A DNA stretch of 50,758 nt from the NCBI GenBank assembly GCA_026396195.1, contig JAPLXH010000003.1:1-50758 (forward strand), in the 5' to 3' direction. The DNA comes from Candidatus Nealsonbacteria bacterium (GTDB lineage Bacteria; Patescibacteriota; Minisyncoccia; Minisyncoccales; JAGGXC01). Of this stretch, positions 5,159 to 39,870 are shown piece after piece; positions within the stretch are counted from its first letter, which is position 1, and each line of letters begins with the position of its first letter. The position numbers were made by a program, and so were the translations under genes. The notes under the pieces are model-generated. The model did no database searches. It was not told the origin of the DNA and saw nothing but the letters and a program-made list of their open reading frames with translations.

Positions 5159-5202
5159 CTATTGATTTTAGTTTAAAATTTAGTTATTATGATGGGTATT
5201 AT

Positions 5203-5258
5203 AGCGGGGTAGAGAAGTAGTATCTTGTCCCGATTCATAAATCGGGAAGACACTGGTG
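5203..5258 (+). pseudogene. 5' part of an initiator-tRNA-like gene (copy 1)
   Basis: Bases 5203-5228 match the intact initiator tRNA (5496-5566) except one base: acceptor AGCGGGG, D-arm GAGA...TCTT. The anticodon arm is different: an extended palindrome CCCGATTCATAAATCGGG with CAT in the loop, giving an arm 3 nt too long. The copy breaks off in the T-arm after ACTGGTG, and the GIY-YIG ORF starts 5 nt later. It has no acceptor 3' strand, so it cannot fold as a tRNA by itself. Confidence 0.7.
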
Positions 5259-5262
5259 AATT

Positions 5263-5505
5263 ATGAATTGCTATGCGTATATTCTTAAAAATGAAAAAGG
5301 AGATTTATATATAGGCCAAACAAATAACCTTCAGGAAAGAATAGAACGTCACAATAAAAATCGCATTACTTCTACAAAGAAAAAAGGGCCATGGAAAATA
5401 GTTTGGCGGAGGGCTTTTAATACGAAAGGGGAAGCGATGAAATACGAAAAGTATTTAAAAAGCTTAAAAAATAAAAAATACCTTGAGAAAATTATAGCGG
5501 GGTAG
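5263..5505 (+). CDS. Small GIY-YIG domain nuclease-like protein
   Basis: 80 residues, one complete GIY-YIG fold. CYAYILKNEKGDLYIGQTNN carries the paired motifs (here 'AYI...YIG'), the catalytic Arg is in ERIERHNKN, and the Glu lies in GEAMKYEKYLK. Such mini-proteins are often annotated UvrC-like or UPF0213/YhbQ-like; their role is unknown. The gene lies exactly between two initiator-tRNA-like copies. Its last codons and TAG stop are read from the acceptor and position 8-9 region of the downstream tRNA (ATA GCG GGG TAG). There is no good ribosome binding site. This layout suggests a selfish or homing-type element (inference). Confidence 0.85.
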   Translation: MNCYAYILKNEKGDLYIGQTNNLQERIERHNKNRITSTKKKGPWKIVWRRAFNTKGEAMKYEKYLKSLKNKKYLEKIIAG

Positions 5506-5566
5506 AGAAGTAGTATCTCGTGGGTCTCATAAGCCCAAGACACTGGTGCAACTCCAGTCCCCGCAA
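5496..5566 (+). tRNA. tRNA-fMet (CAU), initiator, intact copy
   Basis: 71 nt cloverleaf: acceptor AGCGGGG/CCCCGCA with an A1 x A72 mismatch (position 1-72 mismatch is the initiator hallmark), D-arm GAGA...TCTC, anticodon arm TGGGT-CTCATAA-GCCCA with the three G:C pairs typical of initiators, T-arm ACTGG-TGCAACT-CCAGT. Discriminator A; CCA is not encoded (ACA follows). Odd points: the D-loop AGTAGTA has no GG pair and the T-loop is TGCAACT rather than TTCRANY. The acceptor 5' strand overlaps the end of the GIY-YIG ORF. Confidence 0.85.
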
Positions 5567-5592
5567 CAAAATTGGAGTTTATTATAACAAAG

Positions 5593-5654
5593 GTAGTATC
5601 TCGTCCCGATTCATAAATCGGGAAGACGCTCGTGCAATTCGAGCCCCCGCAACA
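5593..5654 (+). pseudogene. 3' part of an initiator-tRNA-like gene (copy 3)
   Basis: It begins inside the D-arm (GTAGTATCTCG) and has the same palindromic anticodon arm as copy 1, a paired T-arm GCTCG-TGCAATT-CGAGC and the acceptor 3' strand CCCCGCAACA. The acceptor 5' strand and the D-stem 5' strand are missing, replaced by unrelated bases. Joined to copy 1 it would give a whole initiator-like tRNA, so copies 1 and 3 look like halves of a disrupted gene. Confidence 0.65.
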
Positions 5655-5870: not shown

Positions 5871-5944
5871 GGGGACGTAGATCAATTGGTTAGATCGCAT
5901 CCCTGTCACGGATGAGGTTGCGAGTTCGAGTCTCGTCGTCCCCG
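5871..5944 (+). tRNA. tRNA-Asp (GUC)
   Basis: 74 nt cloverleaf: acceptor GGGGACG/CGTCCCC, anticodon arm CATCC-CTGTCAC-GGATG giving GTC, T-arm with TTCGAGT loop, discriminator G as required by AspRS. Only 12 nt separate it from tRNA-Met, so the two are probably co-transcribed. Its 3' end and terminator are the parent sequence of the R elements found downstream. Confidence 0.95.
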
Positions 5945-5955
5945 CAAAGAAAATT

Positions 5956-5980
5956 ACCCGAGATTTACCTCGGGTTTTGT
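5956..5980 (+). terminator. Terminator of the tRNA cluster (parent of the R-type terminators)
   Basis: Stem ACCCGAG/CTCGGGT with loop ATTTAC followed by TTTGTG. The same hairpin with one or two changed loop bases recurs at 6816, 7898, 9219 and 9913. Confidence 0.85.
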
Positions 5981-5993
5981 GTCAGTCTCTCTA

Positions 5994-6023
5994 TTGACAA
6001 AACTGTAATAAAAATGGTATAAT
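5994..6023 (+). promoter_or_regulatory. Sigma-70-type promoter of locus A
   Basis: TTGACA (5994-5999), 18 nt spacer, TATAAT (6018-6023). The predicted +1 falls on the first base of the 5' hairpin at 6030. Confidence 0.8.
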
Positions 6024-6029
6024 AAAGAT

Positions 6030-6102
6030 GGAAAGGAAAGAAAAAAGAAGATTCTTTACTTTCCAAATTGCACCTTGAGATCTTAATATAAGATTAGAGG
6101 TG
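6030..6102 (+). promoter_or_regulatory. Structured 5' leader of locus A
   Basis: A +1 stem-loop pairs 6030-6042 with 6052-6064 (GGAAAG and AAAGAA arms, one mismatch). After AAATTG comes a second hairpin, CACCT (6071-6075) with AGGTG (6098-6102) and an inner ATCTTA/TAAGAT stem. The locus at 43879 has the same order, and TTGCACCTTGA is identical there. Confidence 0.75.
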
Positions 6103-6124
6103 ATAGAAAAAGAGGTGAAAAGAA

Positions 6125-6424
6125 ATGACAGCAAAAGAAGATATTAATAAGGCAGAAGTCGGGGAAATATCTTACCTGATCGTTAAAGAGATGGTAAAGA
6201 AAGAAATGCGTATCTCTTCGTTCAGTGATCCTGAAATCAAAAAGAGAATCGGCGATGCTCTTGGAAAACTAAAAATGCCAAAAGAGAAACTTCTTGCTTA
6301 TTGTAAGTTTCTCGGAAACGATGTTTTTCAAGAAGCTAACGCTAGCCTACAGGCAACGGAATTCTCTGAAAAATATTTAGCAGATGAAAATGCTCGTCGG
6401 GCAAGAAGTAGTCTACCGCAGTAA
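6125..6424 (+). CDS. Small helical protein of locus A, paralogue of the 43978 product
   Basis: 99 residues, charged, helical, no membrane segment or cysteine cluster. The start is set by GAGGTG 7 nt upstream. The part ISYLIVKEMVKKEM...KKRIGDALGKLKMPKEKLL resembles INLIAKQAFKAHLR...IKRNIGNSL...KEEALEF of the protein at 43978-44202, weakly but in the same order. The shared leader and trailer RNA supports common descent. No known family is recognised. The gene lies just behind tRNA-Asp and has its own promoter. Confidence 0.75.
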   Translation: MTAKEDINKAEVGEISYLIVKEMVKKEMRISSFSDPEIKKRIGDALGKLKMPKEKLLAYCKFLGNDVFQEANASLQATEFSEKYLADENARRARSSLPQ

Positions 6425-6702
6425 AAAAAGATAGAAGGAAAGCAGGGTTGAACCCGCAAGGTTCGTCAAAGGGTAATTGATCTTTCTTAAAGATTAGACA
6501 GAAAGACAGAACAAGAACCCCTCCCTCTTACCTTCTAATATTTTTTCATCTCTTTGTACCATTTATATCGTGATCTTGTTGAGCCTCGGCTCAAAACAGA
6601 TCCGATTCCTAAAGGAGAGTAAGGATAAAAATCTTTCTATATGATGTGGACCATTCAAAAAGTTCACTCTCTGTAAAAAGATTCATTCCTCTCTCCTTTT
6701 TC
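6425..6702 (+). ncRNA. Conserved structured 3' UTR of locus A
   Basis: AAAGGGTAATTG (6468-6479) is followed by the hairpin ATCTTT-CTT-AAAGAT, then ACAGAACAAGAACC and CTTACC (6527-6532), where GGTAA can pair with TTACC. The end is a long hairpin closed by GGAGAG (6614-6619) and CTCTCC (6691-6696) with inner AAATCTTT/AAAGATT, then TTTTTCC. Locus B (44203-44403) has the same motifs in the same order with different stem bases. This fills a 450-base gap without any ORF. Confidence 0.65.
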
Positions 6703-6777
6703 CATTTTTTAACTAAAACAGACCCTGATGCTTTCCATCCATTTTTCCTGATTTCTTATTAAATCCACCCACTTAAA

Positions 6778-6840
6778 GGTTCTAAACGTGTCCCGTAGTC
6801 CCCGCTACGATTTTTACCCGAGATTTAGCTCGGGTTTTGT
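6778..6840 (+). repeat. R element 1 (tRNA-Asp 3'-end-like sequence plus terminator)
   Basis: It reads GGTTCTAAACGTGTCCCGTA, then GTCCCCGC, then the terminator ACCCGAG-ATTTAG-CTCGGGT (6816-6835). GTCCCCGC plus terminator match the 3' end of tRNA-Asp and what follows. A -10 TATAAT lies directly behind (6843-6848). Confidence 0.7.
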
Positions 6841-6876
6841 GGTATAATATTTATAAATAATAAATAATATTTTTTT

Positions 6877-7110
6877 ATGTCTATTATAATAGTTAAAATT
6901 CTAAGTTTCTTTGTGCCACTTTTTCTAATTATTTTCGGAGCACTTACGCTTTCATATAAGCCCTTTTTAGAATGGTCTATAAGACTTGAAAATCAATTAA
7001 GGGGAACCAAAACTGAAATAAATTCCACAACAATAATTTATAAAAAATTAATGGCAATTTTTGCTATTATTTTTGGTATAATAGCATTTTATTTATTAAA
7101 CAAGTTCTAA
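6877..7110 (+). CDS. Small two-TM protein, unknown
   Basis: 77 residues with two hydrophobic helices (about residues 4-26 and 57-75) and a basic/polar loop RLENQLRGTKTEINSTT between them. Not recognised. It has no ribosome binding site and is transcribed from a TATAAT at 6843 directly behind the R1 terminator. It forms a one-gene unit between R1 and R2. Confidence 0.65.
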   Translation: MSIIIVKILSFFVPLFLIIFGALTLSYKPFLEWSIRLENQLRGTKTEINSTTIIYKKLMAIFAIIFGIIAFYLLNKF

Positions 7111-7140
7111 CATAATTCGTTAAGAGTCAAATTCATCATA

Positions 7141-7230
7141 AAAAACCTATTATTTCCTCTAACCCTGGTTCTAACGTCGTCTACGAGTCCCCGCAAAGTA
7201 AAACCGCTTCCTAACATAGCGGTTTTTAAA
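7141..7230 (+). repeat. R element 2
   Basis: CCTCTAACCCTGGTTCTAAC followed by GTCGTCTACGAGTCCCCGCA and AAG. The terminator is different here: AACCGC (7202-7207)/GCGGTT (7219-7224) then TTT. Apart from that it closely matches R4. Confidence 0.75.
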
Positions 7231-7245
7231 TTAATGTAAGTTTAT

Positions 7246-7274
7246 TTGACAAAATAATATTTTTATTTTAGAAT
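7246..7274 (+). promoter_or_regulatory. Promoter of the 7306 gene
   Basis: TTGACA (7246-7251), 17 nt, TAGAAT (7269-7274), starting 22 nt behind the R2 terminator stem. Confidence 0.75.
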
Positions 7275-7305
7275 ATAAAAGATAAAATAAGAAGGAGGCG
7301 ATGAA

Positions 7306-7611
7306 TTGCTGAAAAAGAAGAAATGGATAGCTACATATGTTCTTTTAATCATAAATAAAGAAAGATACGAAAGTTATCGCGAGATGCTTGAAAAAACGCC
7401 AATGATGCATATACATAAAGACGGAAAAATGATCCCCGTTTTTAAGGCTCTAGATCCAAAGATAGAAAATGGAGATAGAAAAGAATTTTCTGTATTTGCT
7501 AGAACAAGATTTGGAGCAAAAAGAGAGGCTATAATAAAAGGATTATATGCTAATTTAGTTTTTAATGGAAATATAATTTATAAGCTTGAATCAATAGTTC
7601 TATCAAAATAA
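7306..7611 (+). CDS. Hypothetical protein, TTG start
   Basis: 101 residues, basic, no TM or known motif. The start is TTG at 7306, placed 7 nt behind a strong GGAGG (7294-7298). The ATG at 7301 is out of frame and meets TGA after three codons. Not recognised. A one-gene unit with its own promoter and a terminator at 7616-7648 (AACCAGA/TCTGGTT plus T-run). Confidence 0.7.
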   Translation: MLKKKKWIATYVLLIINKERYESYREMLEKTPMMHIHKDGKMIPVFKALDPKIENGDRKEFSVFARTRFGAKREAIIKGLYANLVFNGNIIYKLESIVLSK

Positions 7612-7615
7612 ATTT

Positions 7616-7648
7616 AACCAGAGATATGTTTCTTCTGGTTGTTTTTTT
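7616..7648 (+). terminator. Terminator after the 7306 gene
   Basis: AACCAGA (7616-7622) pairs with TCTGGTT (7634-7640), then GTTTTTTT. Confidence 0.8.
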
Positions 7649-7675
7649 GCCAATTATACGAGAGGTAAATCTAAA

Positions 7676-7920
7676 ACAAAAACCTCATTGTTCCCCCTAA
7701 TCCTGGTTCTAACGTTGTCTACGAGCCCCCGCCTTTGCTTCGCCGAAGCCTTGGCGAAGGAGAGCCGTCGCCTTTAGGCTATGGCTACGCTAGGCGAGCT
7801 TCGTCTCAGCTACGGCGAGGCAAGCCCGCCATCCTTCGCTACTCCGTAGCTATATGGAATAGCGTAGGATAGCTATGGAATGGCAAGCCAAAGTTTTACC
7901 CGAGATTTAGCTCGGGTTTT
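7676..7920 (+). repeat. R element 3 with REP-like insertion
   Basis: CCCCCTAATCCTGGTTCTAA, then CGTTGTCTACGAGCCCCCGC (to 7732), followed by about 160 bases of palindromic repeat (for example CTTCGCC..GGCGAAG, and CCATCCTTCGCT..GGAATGGCAAGCC), and finally the standard terminator ACCCGAG/CTCGGGT at 7898-7917. No ORF is plausible in this 360-base gap. A similar CCATCCTACGCT..GGAATGGCAAGCC block lies at 37930-37963. Confidence 0.7.
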
Positions 7921-7969
7921 GTGGTAGAATAAAAGAAAGCCGTTAATATAAATTTTAATAATATTTATT

Positions 7970-8626
7970 ATGGAAGAAAAAAAAGAAGAAGATAAAAAAG
8001 TTTCAAAGAAAAATAAATTAATAATAATTTTATTTATTTTTGCACTTTTGTTTACGGCATTTACAATATTTACAATATCATCGTTAGGTACCGCAAGAAA
8101 ACCCGCTATCTATTTATATCCAACAGAAGATTCTTTTGTAAATGTTAAATTGAAAATTAAAGGATTAATAACTAAAGACATCCCTAAATATAATAATGGG
8201 TGGAATGTTTTTGTGACGAAAGATGGCTTAATTAATCAAAAATACGATTATTTATTTTACGAGACTAAACTACTAAAGGTGGATTTACCGAAATCTGGTT
8301 GGGTGGTTAAATATAAAGATTTAAATCAATGGTTTGATATTAATCTAATGAAATTAGGACTAAACGAAAAAGAAAAAAAACAATTTATAGAATATTGGAT
8401 TGAAAGTTTGCCTGAGGCAAATTACTATGAGATAAAATTGCTTGAAGAAAATTTCTTGAATGAAAATATGGCCTTGGGCATATCTCCTAAGCCCGATACA
8501 GTAATAAGATTAATGTTTAATTTTAGACCACTTAATAAAAAGATTGATATTACAGAGCCAGACATTAATACCCCCAAAAGAGAAGGGTTCACCGTTGTTG
8601 AATGGGGAGGCATATTAGATAATTAA
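7970..8626 (+). CDS. Membrane-anchored protein with a KPAIYLYP-type domain, unknown function
   Basis: 218 residues: a lysine-rich cytoplasmic N-terminus, one TM helix at about residues 18-36, then an extracytoplasmic domain beginning KPAIYLYPTEDSFVNVKLKI and containing YDYLFYE and the C-terminal VVEWGG. Proteins with a 'PAIYLYP' start and 'YLFxE' motif are widespread but uncharacterised as far as I know. It is the first gene of a two-gene unit between R3 and R4; -10 TAGAAT lies just behind the R3 terminator. Confidence 0.7.
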   Translation: MEEKKEEDKKVSKKNKLIIILFIFALLFTAFTIFTISSLGTARKPAIYLYPTEDSFVNVKLKIKGLITKDIPKYNNGWNVFVTKDGLINQKYDYLFYETKLLKVDLPKSGWVVKYKDLNQWFDINLMKLGLNEKEKKQFIEYWIESLPEANYYEIKLLEENFLNENMALGISPKPDTVIRLMFNFRPLNKKIDITEPDINTPKREGFTVVEWGGILDN

Positions 8627-8667
8627 TAAATTTATAAAAAAACAATAATTAATTTTTTTAATTAAAT

Positions 8668-9135
8668 ATGCTTAATAAGAAAATATCCAAATATACAATT
8701 ATTTTAATTATTTCAATAGTTCTTATTATTTTTAATCTCTTTTTTTGGTTTATGGTTTTAACGGGTGAAGTAGGAGGCGGTGGGCGACCTACAGACGCTC
8801 GTAGACAATCAGATATCAGACAGATTGGTTTAGCTATGGAAATGTATTACGAGGCAAATAATAGTAAATACCTTCAATCAGCGATTATACCTAGTGGCAT
8901 TGGGACTTTTTTAAATCCAATTCCTAGAGATCCGACAACAGGCAATGAGTATTCATGGGTAAATAACAATGTGCCTTGTGATGTTCTAGAAGTGAGTCAA
9001 TGGTATTGTGCTTACGGAATTTTAGAGCACACAACTACTCAAGTAGGTAGCGTGTTGGCAAATCAAAAGGGGGTAAAAACTTTGAATTGGGCTTCTACTA
9101 CAATTTTGAGTAATATTAACTGCTGTCTTTGGTAA
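8668..9135 (+). CDS. Type IV pilin/pseudopilin-like protein without a classical prepilin peptidase site
   Basis: 155 residues. An N-terminal TM helix (residues 8-31) is followed by DARRQSDIRQIGLAMEMYYE and a YP-like segment, the usual start of the pilin head in bacterial pseudopilins. Two Cys pairs near the C-terminus could form disulfides. The usual GFTLIE cleavage motif is absent; the helix is preceded by LNKKISKY instead. It may be a pilin-like protein held by its TM. It sits 41 nt behind the 7970 gene. Confidence 0.6.
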   Translation: MLNKKISKYTIILIISIVLIIFNLFFWFMVLTGEVGGGGRPTDARRQSDIRQIGLAMEMYYEANNSKYLQSAIIPSGIGTFLNPIPRDPTTGNEYSWVNNNVPCDVLEVSQWYCAYGILEHTTTQVGSVLANQKGVKTLNWASTTILSNINCCLW

Positions 9136-9152
9136 GATAACCCAAATCCGCC

Positions 9153-9244
9153 ATAAAAACTCCATTATTCCCCCTAACCCTAGTTCTAACGTCGTCTACG
9201 AGTCCCCGCAAAGTTTTTACCCGAGATTTAACTCGGGTTTTGTG
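9153..9244 (+). repeat. R element 4
   Basis: CCCCCTAACCCTAGTTCTAA, then CGTCGTCTACGAGTCCCCGC, AAAG, and the terminator ACCCGAG/CTCGGGT (9219-9238). This is the least altered copy; the following TTGACA starts one base behind it. Confidence 0.78.
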
Positions 9245-9272
9245 TTGACAAAATATTTATTTTATGTAAAAT
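9245..9272 (+). promoter_or_regulatory. Promoter of the 9291 regulator
   Basis: TTGACA (9245-9250), 16 nt, TAAAAT (9267-9272), immediately behind R4. Confidence 0.7.
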
Positions 9273-9290
9273 ATAAAAGAGGTTTTAGAA

Positions 9291-9725
9291 ATGAATAAAA
9301 AAGAAAACATCTTAAGAAAGAGTGGTTTTTATGAAGTTATTTTAAGTTTAGGAAAACAGAAAACCTTTACTGAGATTATGGATGAAACGGGTTTAACTAC
9401 AGCAACTATTTCTAGAAGACTAAAAGAGATGAAAAATCATGGTTTTATAAGAAAAAATCTTGATCCAGTAGACGAAAAAGTAAAATATTTTCTTACGACT
9501 AAAGGAACAAAAAATATAGGATTAATAGATGTTATAGTAATTTTAGAAAAAGCATTGGAAGAAAAAGGCGAAACAAAAGAAATAAACGAAAGAATAGAAA
9601 AAATTTGTTCTGAATGCCACAAAAAAATATTCTGCGTTGTAGAAAATATTAATACAGGTAATTCATCTCTTGAATGTATAAGTTGCAAAAAGCAATATCC
9701 ATTAACCGTTAGCGGTCTAGGCTAA
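9291..9725 (+). CDS. Winged-helix transcription regulator with C-terminal zinc ribbon
   Basis: 144 residues. The N-terminal winged helix (about 5-75) reads MDETGLTTATISRRLKEMKN for the recognition helices and KYFLTTKG for the wing. A linker helix is followed by a zinc ribbon, CSECHKK...LECISCKK (near 104-135). The fold resembles ArsR/MarR-like and archaeal-type regulators. Target unknown; a one-gene unit with its own promoter and terminator (9749-9775). Confidence 0.75.
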   Translation: MNKKENILRKSGFYEVILSLGKQKTFTEIMDETGLTTATISRRLKEMKNHGFIRKNLDPVDEKVKYFLTTKGTKNIGLIDVIVILEKALEEKGETKEINERIEKICSECHKKIFCVVENINTGNSSLECISCKKQYPLTVSGLG

Positions 9726-9748
9726 AAAATAATTTCAATCTAATCTAT

Positions 9749-9775
9749 GCTGAAGAAAAACTTCAGCCTTTTTTT
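9749..9775 (+). terminator. Terminator after the 9291 gene
   Basis: Perfect GCTGAAG/CTTCAGC stem with loop AAAAA and a run of seven T. Confidence 0.88.
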
Positions 9776-9797
9776 ATTTAAATCCCGCTAAATTTAT

Positions 9798-9936
9798 CAT
9801 AAAACCCCCTCATTCCCCACATAATCCTGGTTCTAATCCTTCGACATGCTCAGGACAGGTCCTTCGGGAATACTCAGGACTACGCTACGTCTACGAGTCC
9901 CCGCAAAGTTTTACCCGAGATTTAACTCGGGTTTTG
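9798..9936 (+). repeat. R element 5, interrupted by a second repeat
   Basis: CCTGGTTCTAA is separated from CGTCTACGAGTCCCCGCAAA by about 50 bases containing CCTTCGACATGCTCAGGACA and CCTTCGGGAATACTCAGG. The terminator ACCCGAG/CTCGGGT follows at 9913-9932. R4 shows the uninterrupted form, so this is a repeat nested in a repeat. Confidence 0.75.
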
Positions 9937-9945
9937 TATTATCTG

Positions 9946-9974
9946 TTGACAAAATTAAATTATTGCTATATAAT
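9946..9974 (+). promoter_or_regulatory. Promoter of the 10078 gene
   Basis: TTGACA (9946-9951), 17 nt, TATAAT (9969-9974): a consensus promoter. Confidence 0.85.
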
Positions 9975-10023
9975 ATAAAAGTTAGAATAAAATAGTTCTT
10001 TAATTAAAATTTATAGGGAAGAG

Positions 10024-10080
10024 GAATCTACTTCACCAAATTGTTTATCATATATGGTAGATAGTTTGGTGATGTAGATT
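10024..10080. promoter_or_regulatory. Long inverted repeat in the 5' leader
   Basis: AATCTACTTCACCAAA (10025-10040) pairs with TTTGGTGATGTAGATT (10065-10080), 15 of 16 positions, around a 24-base loop. It lies about 45 nt behind +1 and covers the possible GGTGAT ribosome site and ATT start of the next gene. It could be an operator or a translation switch. Confidence 0.6.
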
Positions 10081-10524
10081 AAAAAAAAGAATAATTGTTT
10101 ATATAGAGGTCATATAGAAGTTTTAGCAGCTCTGGAAATTATAGAGAGGGAAGCGACGGTGAATGAGATTCAAAACATAATAAAATTTTCTAAACAGTAT
10201 ATCAGAAATTTACTTTGTGAGTTATCAAAACTCGGGCTTGTTAAAGGAAAGAGGTGTTGCTGTGGTGTTTCAGGTCTTTTTAGCAGTCTTAACGCGAAAG
10301 AATTAGAAGTGGCTCAAAAGCAGCAATTAGGCTTATATGCTTTGAATAATTCTTTTGAAAAAATAGTTAGAAAACATCCAGAGATTATTGATTGGGGCAG
10401 AAAATATTTAAAAGTTAATTCTATAGACGACCTTAATAAAAAAATAAAAGAAGCACGCAAAAAAATAGCAGAATCTAACCTTCTTCCTATTTTTTTTCTA
10501 GCCCAAGATAAATTTGTGGTTTAG
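10078..10524 (+). CDS. Winged-helix-like regulator, start uncertain
   Basis: The frame opens at 10078 behind a TAG. Candidate starts are GTG 10159 (121 residues, AGAGGG 8 nt upstream) and ATT 10078 (148 residues, GGTGAT upstream). The stretch between them reads HIEVLAALEIIEREATVNEI, a natural first helix of the winged helix whose recognition part is KQYIRNLLCELSKLGLVKGK. The longer form is therefore favoured even though it has no ATG. The rest is helical with three Cys after the wing (CCCG) and no known domain. Probably autoregulatory given the leader hairpin (inference). Confidence 0.55.
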   Translation: MKKKNNCLYRGHIEVLAALEIIEREATVNEIQNIIKFSKQYIRNLLCELSKLGLVKGKRCCCGVSGLFSSLNAKELEVAQKQQLGLYALNNSFEKIVRKHPEIIDWGRKYLKVNSIDDLNKKIKEARKKIAESNLLPIFFLAQDKFVV

Positions 10525-13926: not shown

Positions 13927-15273
13927 ATGAACAATATTTTTTTGAAAGCAATTTTGTTCACAAAAGAGAACTTAAACATTGTTTATTCTCTTTTTCTTAT
14001 TATTTTGATTCCGGCAGCTTTTTTTGTGAACAACTATTTAATTAATTCAAACTATGAAAAAAACATAGACCAAATTACTCAGAGAAAAGCGATATTGGTG
14101 GAAAATATTATAAACAATTTGATTCAAGGTCAGTTGGAAAATACAGCAGCCCTTCAGTCTTCCGCGGACCGAATAGTCCAAGAAAACAAAGAGATTATCT
14201 TATTATCAATTTTAAAATCACAGGACGAGCGAGGAGGATTTGAGATTATTGTTTCCAGTGATTCTAATCTTATTGGTCAAAAAAAAGACGAAGAGATACA
14301 AAATATCCTCGCCTGGAATCAACCCGAGGGAATAGCTTTTCTTGACAGAAACGAGAGAGGAAGATTTTGGAAGGTAACGAAATCGCTTTCCGATAATTCA
14401 AATAATAAAATAGGATTGATTGAGATGTCTTTTTCTCTCGAGGATTCAGACGCCCTAATTAATAAAACTATTTCTAATTCATATTGGATTTTAATTCTTA
14501 CAATTTTGGTGGTAGTTCTTTTTGTGGCCAATCAAGCAAGGCTTTTGGGTTATGTTTCTACTGTTACTAAACTAAAAGAGATAGATAAAATGAAAGATAT
14601 GTTTATTTCAATGGCAAGCCATGAACTTCGTTCTCCCCTTACAGCCATCAAAGGTTATTTAGATTTAATAAAAAGCAAAAAAGATCTTAAGTTAGATAAA
14701 GATAGTGACCATTATATTACAAATATTCTACTATCAGTAGATAGGCTTGATAATCTTGTTGAGGATATTCTTGAGGTTTCGCGGATTGAAGGCAATCGAT
14801 TACCAATAGAAATAACTGCTTTTAATCCCGACGCTATAATCTCTCAGTCTATTGATGAGATGCGTTTTCAGGCCACCCAAAAAAATCTTAAATTAAATTT
14901 TAAGCCTTTTGAATCAGTCGTTCAAATTAAAGCTGATAAAGAAAGATTAAAACAGGTTTTGATTAACCTTATTAGTAACGCTATTAAATATACAGAGAAA
15001 GGATCTATAGAGGTTAATACGGCATTAAAAAAGGGAAGTTTTTTAATAACCGTTGCAGATACTGGAATCGGAATTTCTTCAGAAGATCAATCTAATATAT
15101 TTCAAAAATTTTATCGAATTAAAAATAAATATACCATGGATATTATTGGGACAGGACTAGGTCTTTGGATAACTTTTGAAATTATAAAAAGAATGCAAGG
15201 AAAGATTACCCTTGAGAGCATAGAAGGAGTCGGGTCTCATTTTACCGTACATCTTCCAATTGTTAAGAAATAG
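13927..15273 (+). CDS. Membrane sensor histidine kinase
   Basis: 448 residues. TM1 at about 17-36 and TM2 at about 183-202 enclose an extracytoplasmic sensor domain of ~145 residues (Cache-like by position, not proven). HisKA has MASHELRSPLTAIKGYLDL with the phospho-His near residue 234; the ATPase has the N box NLISNAIKYTEKG, G1 DTGIGISSED and G2 GTGLGLWI. No response regulator is nearby, so it is an orphan. Its coupling to the upstream surface protein suggests that protein may supply or modulate the signal (inference). Confidence 0.93.
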   Translation: MNNIFLKAILFTKENLNIVYSLFLIILIPAAFFVNNYLINSNYEKNIDQITQRKAILVENIINNLIQGQLENTAALQSSADRIVQENKEIILLSILKSQDERGGFEIIVSSDSNLIGQKKDEEIQNILAWNQPEGIAFLDRNERGRFWKVTKSLSDNSNNKIGLIEMSFSLEDSDALINKTISNSYWILILTILVVVLFVANQARLLGYVSTVTKLKEIDKMKDMFISMASHELRSPLTAIKGYLDLIKSKKDLKLDKDSDHYITNILLSVDRLDNLVEDILEVSRIEGNRLPIEITAFNPDAIISQSIDEMRFQATQKNLKLNFKPFESVVQIKADKERLKQVLINLISNAIKYTEKGSIEVNTALKKGSFLITVADTGIGISSEDQSNIFQKFYRIKNKYTMDIIGTGLGLWITFEIIKRMQGKITLESIEGVGSHFTVHLPIVKK

Positions 15274-37814: not shown

Positions 37815-37887
37815 GGCCCCATCGTCTAGTGGCCCAGGACATCGCCCTCTCACGGCGGTAACAGGGGTTCAAATCCCCTTGGGGCTA
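37815..37887 (+). tRNA. tRNA-Glu (CUC)
   Basis: 73 nt: acceptor GGCCCCA/TGGGGCT (G1-U72 wobble), D-arm GTCT..AGGAC, anticodon arm TCGCC-CTCTCAC-GGCGG with anticodon CTC, T-arm AGGGG-TTCAAAT-CCCCT. The pattern closely follows bacterial tRNA-Glu. CCA is not encoded. Confidence 0.92.
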
Positions 37888-37968
37888 CAAGTCTCCTCCT
37901 ACGTTGAAACTTCGGACGGACAAAGCCCACCATCCTACGCTAAAGCTTCGGAATGGCAAGCCAGCAAC
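37888..37968. repeat. REP-like repeat behind tRNA-Glu
   Basis: CCACCATCCTACGCT...GGAATGGCAAGCCA resembles the block inside R3 (about 7830-7891). No ORF. Confidence 0.6.
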
Positions 37969-37995
37969 AGCCGCTTTTCAATAAAGCGGTTTTTT
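37969..37995 (+). terminator. Terminator fused to a promoter
   Basis: CCGCTTT/AAAGCGG with TTTTTT, followed directly by GGTAGAAT. Confidence 0.88.
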
Positions 37996-38043
37996 GGTAG
38001 AATGAGAGAAAGGTCGTATTATTAAAAAAATTAATTTAAATCC

Positions 38044-38370
38044 ATGCATATTATTAGTAAATCAACCTCAGACTTGATTATATATATAGGAATAGTAGTT
38101 TCCATAATAGGTTCTATTATTATAATGAAAAGAATTAAAGCAAAATTAGCGGTAGGGCAAGTATCTCAAGAACCTTTAACAAAAGATGAAAGAATTAAAA
38201 TTTGGATATTAGCTCTTTTTAATCCAATTTGGACGGACATTATTTTATATTTTGGATGGAGAAAGAGTTTACCCATAAAAGCGAAAAATGCAAACTTAAT
38301 ATGTTTTATCACTTTCTTTCTTTGGCTCGCACTGAGCTATTTAATTGGATTTCCGGTTAGGATTAATTAG
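38044..38370 (+). CDS. Small membrane protein, unknown
   Basis: 108 residues with about three hydrophobic helices (10-28, 55-75, 87-104) and a cytoplasmic-type QVSQEPLTKDERIKIW loop. Not recognised. First gene of the island behind tRNA-Glu. Confidence 0.65.
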   Translation: MHIISKSTSDLIIYIGIVVSIIGSIIIMKRIKAKLAVGQVSQEPLTKDERIKIWILALFNPIWTDIILYFGWRKSLPIKAKNANLICFITFFLWLALSYLIGFPVRIN

Positions 38371-38427
38371 TTATAAAAATATTATTAATTTTAATATTTT
38401 ATTTAAAAAAATTATTAAATAAAAAAC

Positions 38428-38634
38428 ATGCAATCAAAAAATTTAAATCCTAAATATACTACTATTATTGGTGCAATTTTAGCAGTAATAGGTTTCGCAT
38501 ACATGACTATAACGGGGACACCCGATGTTATTATTACGTTTTTTACCTTTTTCTTGGGTATATTTTTGTTCATTATAGGAATAGTTGGTTTATTGGTAAA
38601 TTGGTATAAAGGAAAAAAAACCAGCCAACTTTAA
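38428..38634 (+). CDS. Small two-TM protein, unknown
   Basis: 68 residues, helices at about 10-28 and 35-58, basic tail WYKGKKTSQL. Not recognised; it follows the 38044 gene by 57 nt, likely the same transcript. Confidence 0.65.
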   Translation: MQSKNLNPKYTTIIGAILAVIGFAYMTITGTPDVIITFFTFFLGIFLFIIGIVGLLVNWYKGKKTSQL

Positions 38635-38718
38635 ATGTCTGATAATTTATAATACTTTTAAGCAAGAACCAAACTAGACATATAAATCTTTCCAGATTTA
38701 ATAATTTTAGTTCTAAAA

Positions 38719-38740
38719 ATCGCCAATAAAGCGGTTTTTT
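38719..38740 (+). terminator. Weak terminator fused to a promoter
   Basis: CGC/GCG core with GGTTTTTTGG then TAGAAT, same module type as at 37969. Confidence 0.6.
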
Positions 38741-38766
38741 GGTAGAATAAAGTAATAATAAACCAA

Positions 38767-39654
38767 ATGCAGATTCAACATTTAGCATTATTTATTTTAG
38801 GTTTTATTTTACAAGCATTTTTGTTAGTTAGAAATACTGAATATAAGAGATTTTTAGCATTATTAAAATTTGTTACTATTCTTACTTTCTTTATCTTTAT
38901 TTGGTTTGCGATTAAAGCAAATTATTATACCCCCCAAGGCTTCATTATTATTTTCATTTTTGTTTTTACGATTTTATTTTTAGCTGTTTTTATAAAAGAT
39001 TTTTTGATTCAAATTAACGAACTTATTTTATTGTCTTTTACTTTAATTTTTTGGTATGTATTTTTGCTAAGATTTCAATTTAATCCTTTTTTAATAATAT
39101 GTGCATTACCACCTACGATTGGAGTAATTTTTGTTTCTTTTACAAAGTTTCAATTAAAAAATTATCAGAAATTAATGCTTTATTTATGGTTTTTAGTTAT
39201 TGATGTTTTTTTACTAACTCATTATTTCATTCGTGGAAGTTTTTTTTCATTTAGTTTTACTGAAAAAATCGGGCAGGTTTCCCTAATTAACTCTTTTTTT
39301 ATGGGTGCAACCTTTCTGTATCTTGCCTGTAATGTATTGTGCTTTTTCTTATTTTTTACTGTAATTCAAGGAGGAAAAAGTTTTAGACTTCAACCATTTA
39401 AACAAACAATGCAGGCAATAATAAAAAATACTCAGCCTATTATTGCCAAATATTCAAACGAAGAATCAAAAACTTTGCATTCCTTAATGTTAATTATATT
39501 GCAGGGTAGTTTTCTTGCATTAAACTACTTATATAAATTTATTCCAGACTCTTTAATAATTAGTCTTTTTGTAACAATTATTCCTCAATTATTATTAATA
39601 AAAAGCGGTAGCTTAAAGGAACCTATAAATTCTATATCGCCAAACAGGCTCTAA
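38767..39654 (+). CDS. Polytopic membrane protein, unknown
   Basis: 295 residues, about eight hydrophobic helices, rich in Phe and Leu. No transporter signature recognised. It lies between a terminator-promoter module and the degenerate R element 6. Confidence 0.65.
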   Translation: MQIQHLALFILGFILQAFLLVRNTEYKRFLALLKFVTILTFFIFIWFAIKANYYTPQGFIIIFIFVFTILFLAVFIKDFLIQINELILLSFTLIFWYVFLLRFQFNPFLIICALPPTIGVIFVSFTKFQLKNYQKLMLYLWFLVIDVFLLTHYFIRGSFFSFSFTEKIGQVSLINSFFMGATFLYLACNVLCFFLFFTVIQGGKSFRLQPFKQTMQAIIKNTQPIIAKYSNEESKTLHSLMLIILQGSFLALNYLYKFIPDSLIISLFVTIIPQLLLIKSGSLKEPINSISPNRL

Positions 39655-39659
39655 CACTG

Positions 39660-39870
39660 TTTGGGAAGGGGAGCTAAATCCATTATATAAACCCTCTTAT
39701 CTTCCATAATCCTGGTTTTAATTCTTCGGGAATACTCATGACAGGTTCTTCGATGGGCTCAGGACAAGAATCGTTCGCTAGAGCGAGGAGTAACTGGTTG
39801 GAGTATCCCTTGCCAAAGCTTCAAATCTTCTATAATTTGGTTCCAACTTGCCCTCACGAAGTCTACAAAA
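39660..39870. repeat. R element 6, degenerate and interrupted
   Basis: CTTCCATAATCCTGGTTTTA, then CTTCGGGAATACTCATGACA and TTCTTCGATGGGCTCAGGAC match the interrupted R5 (9830-9885). Later GGTTCCAACTTGCCCTCACG and GAAGTCTACAAAA look like a decayed second arm. No ORF in this gap. Confidence 0.55.

Follow-up and report, generated by a model that had tools for sequence, protein, structure and literature searches.

In sedentary chromosomal integrons, unrelated cargo is carried in tandem, same-strand and mostly single-gene units with a conserved site close behind each stop codon, and the arrays are directional and anchored at one end. Integrative elements that target transfer RNA (tRNA) genes, and tandem islands including tycheposons, are generally understood to insert at a tRNA 3' end and restore it, with several elements stacked behind one tRNA and cargo that varies between strains. 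Leader-proximal repeat growth in CRISPR arrays and casposon insertion at tRNA ends likewise duplicate a repeat with each insertion and grow beside an anchor. Here we analyzed a 50,758-nucleotide stretch of a Candidatus Nealsonbacteria bacterium genome (contig JAPLXH010000003.1, positions 1 to 50,758; hereafter the window), in which small genes behind tRNA-Asp (array A, 5871-10524) are separated by copies of an element, R, in a layout that appears to share the features just listed with one or another of these systems. Taken with related loci in other genomes, array A probably belongs to a class of cassette arrays that are integron-like, are anchored at tRNA genes and would grow by site-specific insertion through a recombinase supplied in trans. 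Unlike integrons, these arrays have the tRNA gene as anchor and a site that is not a hairpin, no integron integrase was found, many units appear to have their own promoter and terminator, and there are several arrays per genome. They differ from tRNA-targeting elements in that the units are ~0.8 kb and usually hold one gene, no integrase was found, and one universal 21-nt core occurs across different tRNAs; they differ from CRISPR arrays and casposons in that the units are genes rather than spacers and the core lies at one end of the unit.

Prokaryotic genomes are reported to contain partial tRNA 3' ends and tRNA gene fragments (PMC9897764); unlike the fragments described there, those studied here are joined to a universal core of non-tRNA sequence and recur between gene units. 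No description of such arrays was found among titles and the opening lines of abstracts in the literature.

Each R consists of a universal core, AAACAGGTTCTAACRTCGTCCA, and, at a fixed spacing after it, a terminal stretch of 12-13 nt similar to the local tRNA's acceptor 3' end. Across 187 distinct R copies (the raw set, from which 19 loci overlapping others were left out for later counts), conservation is strong over positions -4 to +16 (AAACAGGTTCTAACRTCGTCC), at ~1-2 bits per base with the exception of one position. The 12-13 nt that follow are variable and end in a sequence like the acceptor 3' strand of a tRNA, followed by the discriminator and C. When these right halves were compared with the nearest upstream tRNA on the same strand (26 tRNA loci and 53 R, overlapping loci dropped), 6.74 of 13 positions matched per locus, versus 5.03 +- 0.28 after permutation, and none of 20,000 permutations gave a value as high; leaving out the genome of the window, the figures were 6.43 and 5.05. 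The best-matching positions were the last bases of the acceptor, with the T-stem part nearer background, and clear cases were obtained for tRNA-Gln (CAAGCCCCGCAGC), tRNA-Ser (ACCCTCCGCC), tRNA-Gly (ATCCCGCTC) and tRNA-Asn (GGAGC). In this respect the arrays resemble tRNA-targeting integrative elements, in which the far end of the insert carries the tRNA 3' end as a direct repeat. In one genome for which no tRNA was called (G216), the array starts with what resembles the 3' end of tRNA-Asn; the end itself, the following sequence and the terminator are shared with the first R. In the 40 nt behind R, copies from one locus resemble each other more closely (mean score 10.1) than copies from different loci do (6.9), and the terminators differ from array to array. 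A preliminary description of the window, made from its sequence, had taken the last parts of R to be the 3' end and terminator of the tRNA. The resemblance of the right halves to the tRNA that heads the array, as measured by permutation, bears this out, but the best-conserved part is the tRNA-independent core of ~21 nt and the terminators vary, so that R is more than a displaced tRNA end with its terminator.

The DNA between successive sites is regular. Among 98 R-to-R units (shorter than 5 kb, with the 19 overlapping loci dropped and six hand-placed sites added), the median length was 789 bp, the longest open reading frame (ORF) lay on the sense strand in 76, and the core of R began a median of 39 nt past the last stop codon. 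The result is a same-strand, mostly single-gene array with a conserved site behind each gene, as in integrons. Six units, each exactly 55 bp between cores, are double sites without a gene (L210, L225, L234 and L250). Of 149 cassette ORFs, 140 were scanned against Pfam and yielded 105 families (E 1e-4), the commonest of which, NUDIX, occurred in four, indicating that the cargo is unrelated. Matches to 45 PADLOC and 57 PHROG families were each found in at most four cassette proteins, and a crude hydropathy test gave a membrane-like segment in 59 of the 149 ORFs. Base frequencies behind R revealed no conserved left end of the units, which makes a two-ended transposon unlikely.

The core is widespread. 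Of 247 genomes from the order, 89 contained it when up to two mismatches were allowed, with ~273 matches (summed by hand) versus 11 for the reversed control, and these matches form directional clusters; neither of the two other genomes in the window's own family contained it. A stricter pattern retrieved 56 contigs from a collection of species genomes. One of these is titled Bacteroidales and is possibly mis-binned; the remainder carry candidate-phyla names or plain 'bacterium', the titles including Nealson-, Wildermuth-, Colwell-, Yanofsky-, Sung-, Zambryski-, Nomura- and Harrisonbacteria, Moraniibacteriota and further Patescibacteria. This distribution makes a Parcubacteria-type host most likely for the window. 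The R pattern with the Asp-type right half had no match in the same collection, relatives being found only by the shorter universal core. In six genomes, 20 of 65 sites had a same-strand tRNA called by ARAGORN within 10 kb upstream, versus 4 of 65 on the opposite strand. A scan of viral sequences returned four contigs with the site pattern; in three of these the match lies within coding or unrelated sequence and appears fortuitous. The fourth, IMG/VR contig L204, has a convincing R near its end (position 14725, minus strand), and the rest of this contig looks phage-like. With three of the four matches chance-like and L204 the one convincing case, a phage-carried site was set aside as an explanation.

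Array content behind the same tRNA differs between relatives, which supports the repeated integration or duplication at a tRNA proposed in the preliminary description. Two sister species of one genus (G012 and G073) are collinear at 73-74% identity up to the last base of tRNA-Asn, right behind which they diverge, each with a different array. The tRNA-Asn locus also has sites behind it both in the genome of the window and in UBA6532. At tRNA-Asp, a gatA-tRNA-fMet-tRNA-Met-tRNA-Asp block is common to several relatives, among which G073 also has a site behind tRNA-Asp; the R model had no match in nine tRNA-Asp stretches of other relatives (L076-L084). Genomes belonging to different families also have cassettes in common: one is 90.5% identical over 1,077 bp between genomes of two families (L159 and L164), a second is 81.5% identical over 724-730 bp (L164 and L168) and sits between two R in L168, and a third, of ~1.04-1.08 kb, is 80-87% identical among three genomes (L165, L167 and L218).

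We propose that R would be the recombination site of small, mostly single-gene cassettes that accumulate one after another downstream of tRNA genes in Parcubacteria-type bacteria. A cassette would open with a tRNA-like acceptor 3' end, usually followed by a terminator, then continue with a promoter and a single gene, and close with the universal core. Whether circular or linear, a cassette carrying one such site would recombine with one of two targets: the 3' end of a tRNA gene, in the role of attI, or a resident R, in the role of attC. The tRNA gene would then be completed by the acceptor end and terminator of the incoming cassette, and the older acceptor copy would be shifted downstream, behind the core of the new cassette, such that repeated rounds may produce the order tRNA-cassette-R-cassette-R.

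Array A displays this layout in the window, with all of its features on the plus strand. It is headed by tRNA-Asp(GTC) at 5871-5945, called by both ARAGORN and Rfam, with a terminator hairpin (ACCCGAGATTTACCTCGGGT) at 5956-5975. The five R elements reported to divide unrelated small genes behind this tRNA are present, with coordinates revised to those given here. Cassette gene 1 (6125-6424, 99 amino acids [aa], without a Pfam match at E 0.1) is followed by R1 (6777-6805) and a hairpin at 6816-6835, and cassette gene 2 (6877-7110, 77 aa), membrane-protein-like by sequence, has its stop overlapped by an extra, degenerate core (AAGTTCTAACATAATTCGT, 7102-7120) ahead of R2 (CTGGTTCTAACGTCGTCTACGAGTCCCCGC, 7165-7194). 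Cassette gene 3 (7306-7611, 101 aa) precedes R3 (7703-7732), behind which a GC-rich repeat of ~160 bp (7733-7895) separates the site from its hairpin (7898-7917). Cassette genes 4 (7970-8626, 218 aa, with a single membrane segment predicted from its sequence) and 5 (8668-9135, 155 aa) share a unit that ends in R4 (9180-9209; hairpin 9219-9238). Cassette gene 6 (9291-9725, 144 aa) encodes a winged-helix regulator (MarR_2/HxlR, E 2.5e-6) and is followed by R5 (9827-9904; hairpin 9913-9932). The last gene of the array (10159-10524) has a weak winged-helix similarity, under the cut-off; no solid family match was obtained for any array A product other than that of 9291-9725 and, weakly, this regulator-like one.

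The common arm layout that had been ascribed to all R holds for R2, R3 and R4, whose sequence is CTGGTTCTAACGTCGTCTACGAGTCCCCGC or near it, but R1 is of a second type (type B, CCCACTTAAAGGTTCTAAACGTGTCCCGTAGTCCCCGC), and R5 is a long form with ~51 nt inserted between the left arm TTCTAAT and GTCTACGAG. Both variants recur elsewhere: the type of R1 is found at the end of the second array of this genome (array B, on contig C5, at 17643) and in loci L160, L161 and L168, and an insert of the R5 kind occupies the same position in site S1 of array B. Similarly, a tRNA-Asp-like hairpin, one or two bases off the tRNA-Asp terminator, does lie behind four of the five R (R1, R3, R4 and R5), but the terminator behind R2 is of a different type, unrelated to it. 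This hairpin, CCCGAGATTTRRCTCGGG, has six copies in the 241 kb of the genome searched, at tRNA-Asp, R1, R3, R4, R5 and one R on contig C10. Upstream of the array (5200-5640), initiator-type tRNA-Met is present in three copies or fragments, which lie around a small ORF for a GIY-YIG nuclease (5263-5505; PF01541, E 1e-17).

While array A is real, the system extends further than first described, with sites behind tRNA-Glu and on other contigs. A third, degenerate array (array C, 37815-39722, plus strand) lies in the window behind tRNA-Glu(CTC) (37815-37888, ARAGORN); it holds three genes (38044-39654; 108, 68 and 295 aa) without Pfam matches and ends in a degenerate R (39646-39722; 28 bits, E 3e-7). 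In the 792-kb genome, a search for the core CAGGTTCTAACGTCGTC that allowed three mismatches at most gave 11 matches, versus none for the reversed pattern, a recurrence that is more than chance. Besides the window's contig, the site-bearing contigs are C1, C5, C6, C7, C9 and C10. Sites are found behind tRNA-Gln(CTG) on C1, tRNA-Gln(TTG) on C9 and tRNA-Asn on C6, and those of array B lie behind a split tRNA adjoining tRNA-Ala. There are sites without a near tRNA on C7 and C10; one C7 site is 8.4 kb behind tRNA-Gly, for which anchoring is only possible. In total, five of seven site clusters have a same-strand tRNA listed by Rfam within 10 kb upstream (chance 0.012 under a uniform model), or six of seven when an intron-split tRNA-Asn is included (chance 0.0013, same model).

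Several of these loci have further peculiarities. The tRNA-Asn of C6 is interrupted within the anticodon loop by a group I intron (L121, C6:88000-106500, at ~6213-6770, minus strand; RF00028, 60 bits against a gathering score of 50), the ORF of which reads like an HNH endonuclease; the C6 array is behind this tRNA. Array B (L006, 12104-17700) is directly behind 16S ribosomal RNA, tRNA-Ile and tRNA-Ala, and Rfam gave no 23S gene beside it in the 20 kb searched. By eye, tRNAs on this contig appear nested in tRNA-Thr and tRNA-Ala (L006, 11500-11850 and 14000-14235) in the order 5' half, whole tRNA, 3' half, and another tRNA appears nested within tRNA-Asp in G019 (L068). On C10 (3633-3701, minus strand; L104), an isolated R is accompanied by a GC-rich repeat and a hairpin like those of R3, and the contig's first 12 kb contain no tRNA; this R is possibly a copy moved from array A.

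Rather than being scattered behind ordinary genes with no gain or loss of units, R mostly behaves in the opposite manner, but some R clusters have no near tRNA, and this is the first of several points that weigh against insertion at tRNA genes by a recombinase in trans. In the six genomes counted above, 45 of the 65 sites lacked an ARAGORN tRNA within 10 kb upstream; these genomes were picked for many sites, several of the stretches end at contig ends, and ARAGORN misses tRNAs that are decayed or split by long introns, as on C6 of the window's genome and in G216. Some clusters may not be anchored at a tRNA at all, for example G172:C4, where the sites have a common end like CCCATAGCCCCAGGGGA. 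The T-stem part of the right half fits tRNAs poorly, so R is not simply a displaced tRNA end, and the permutation and shuffle tests ignore the kinship of the genomes. The similarity of shared cassettes spans the genes, not the flanking R and terminator, and recent transfer of a whole unit has therefore not been caught. Likewise, the genes that follow array A were not recovered past tRNA-Asp in the stretch examined from G001, and since the block up to tRNA-Asp is shared and the genes behind it are not, no clean empty site can be demonstrated. As to the enzyme, when ORFs of the scanned array loci were compared with a hidden Markov model built on 30 of the order's integrases, the only tyrosine recombinases detected were the chromosomal Xer genes in L123 and L170. 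Matches to PF00589 numbered one in 10, two in 5 and none in 1 of the 16 genomes with at least five sites, the last being G012, with 7 sites. Two matches in 5 of these 16 compare with at least two in 43 of the 231 others (Fisher p 0.21, hand counts); the counts fail to separate array-rich genomes from the rest. The arrays apparently do not depend on a second integrase in the host, a candidate explanation that was accordingly dropped.

In the genome of the window, the sole tyrosine recombinase is an Xer-like protein (PF00589) encoded on contig C11, in keeping with the preliminary description, which saw no integrase in the window. Its best NCBIfam models are XerD and XerC (218 and 217 bits, both under the cut-offs), and against the integron integrase model it scores 91 bits (cut-off 265), with the best stretch in the C-terminal part only; there is thus no IntI gene next to the array. 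Because it is the only tyrosine recombinase here, this resident enzyme is a candidate recombinase for R, albeit a weak one. R does not appear to resemble typical dif sites. No transposase, serine recombinase or reverse transcriptase was present among the single-member Pfam families with E <1.8e-25 in the 140 cassette proteins, other recombinase classes not having been searched genome-wide.

The 3' ends of tRNA genes are classic integrase targets, and each R could accordingly be the attR scar of a tRNA-targeting mobile element, such as a satellite or plasmid with its own integrase, that has decayed to one gene, in which case the arrays would be graveyards. Left-arm families of 20-45 bp that are common to different genera (L168 and L172; L164, L169 and L171) are what remnants of larger elements would leave, and the convincing R near the end of the IMG/VR contig is also consistent with this explanation. 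We nevertheless consider it unlikely, given that the scanned array loci contain neither an element-borne integrase nor an integrase fragment, that the other viral matches are chance-like, that the core is still highly conserved, and that regular units of mostly one gene are unlike the outcome of random decay.

It is also conceivable that R is an RNA-level 3'-end signal under selection, functioning in tRNA-like processing or termination, with its clustering near tRNAs due to shared transcription. The short distance from the last stop codon to R, the terminator that often follows and the tRNA-3'-end-like right half would all suit such a role. However, over the 187 R, folding was not above that of mononucleotide shuffles on either strand (mean z 0.20 for the top and 0.10 for the bottom), and no Rfam family was detected at R in the window at gathering score, with only chance-level matches below it. 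Since different arrays behind one tRNA and the sharing of cassettes would in addition be left unexplained, an RNA signal appears very improbable. Inverted repeats within the 36-nt site were also no longer than in shuffled sequence, and the folding statistics together with the cmscan results led us to reject R as an integron attC site or an Rfam family. Finally, the arrays could have arisen without a site-specific enzyme, by RecA-type homologous recombination or by slippage during replication, involving tRNA 3' ends and R copies. This would fit the greater likeness of R copies within an array, and arrays A and B each contain a long site and a type B site, as exchange between the two would produce. 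The explanation is nevertheless very improbable given a common block of only ~30 nt, which is short for homologous recombination, and an identical core that extends far beyond one array and across many families.

The arrays therefore remain best described, on what their sequences suggest, as predicted site-specific gene stockpiles that are integron-like in function. The likeness to an integron array drawn in the preliminary description is apt in that functional sense, but membership among the integrons fails, as there is neither IntI nor a folded site. A more far-reaching possibility, which we put forward tentatively, is that the arrays constitute a gene-capture platform in its own right within the candidate phyla radiation (CPR), in which one universal 21-nt site would serve many tRNA landing sites in parallel through the resident Xer or another enzyme. 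As the cassette would supply the missing tRNA 3' end and terminator, insertion on such a platform would be harmless to the tRNA.

How genes are gained and exchanged in the minimal, host-dependent CPR bacteria is poorly known. A site shared by cassette ends would allow their accessory genes to be listed by a simple motif search, would predict which genes in these genomes are mobile, and would point to a recombinase that can be tested. The arrays would represent a second solution to the stockpiling of single genes, independent of IntI and folded attC sites. If the CPR platform is real, these ultra-small genomes would maintain several stores of genes that are integron-like but lack a dedicated integrase.

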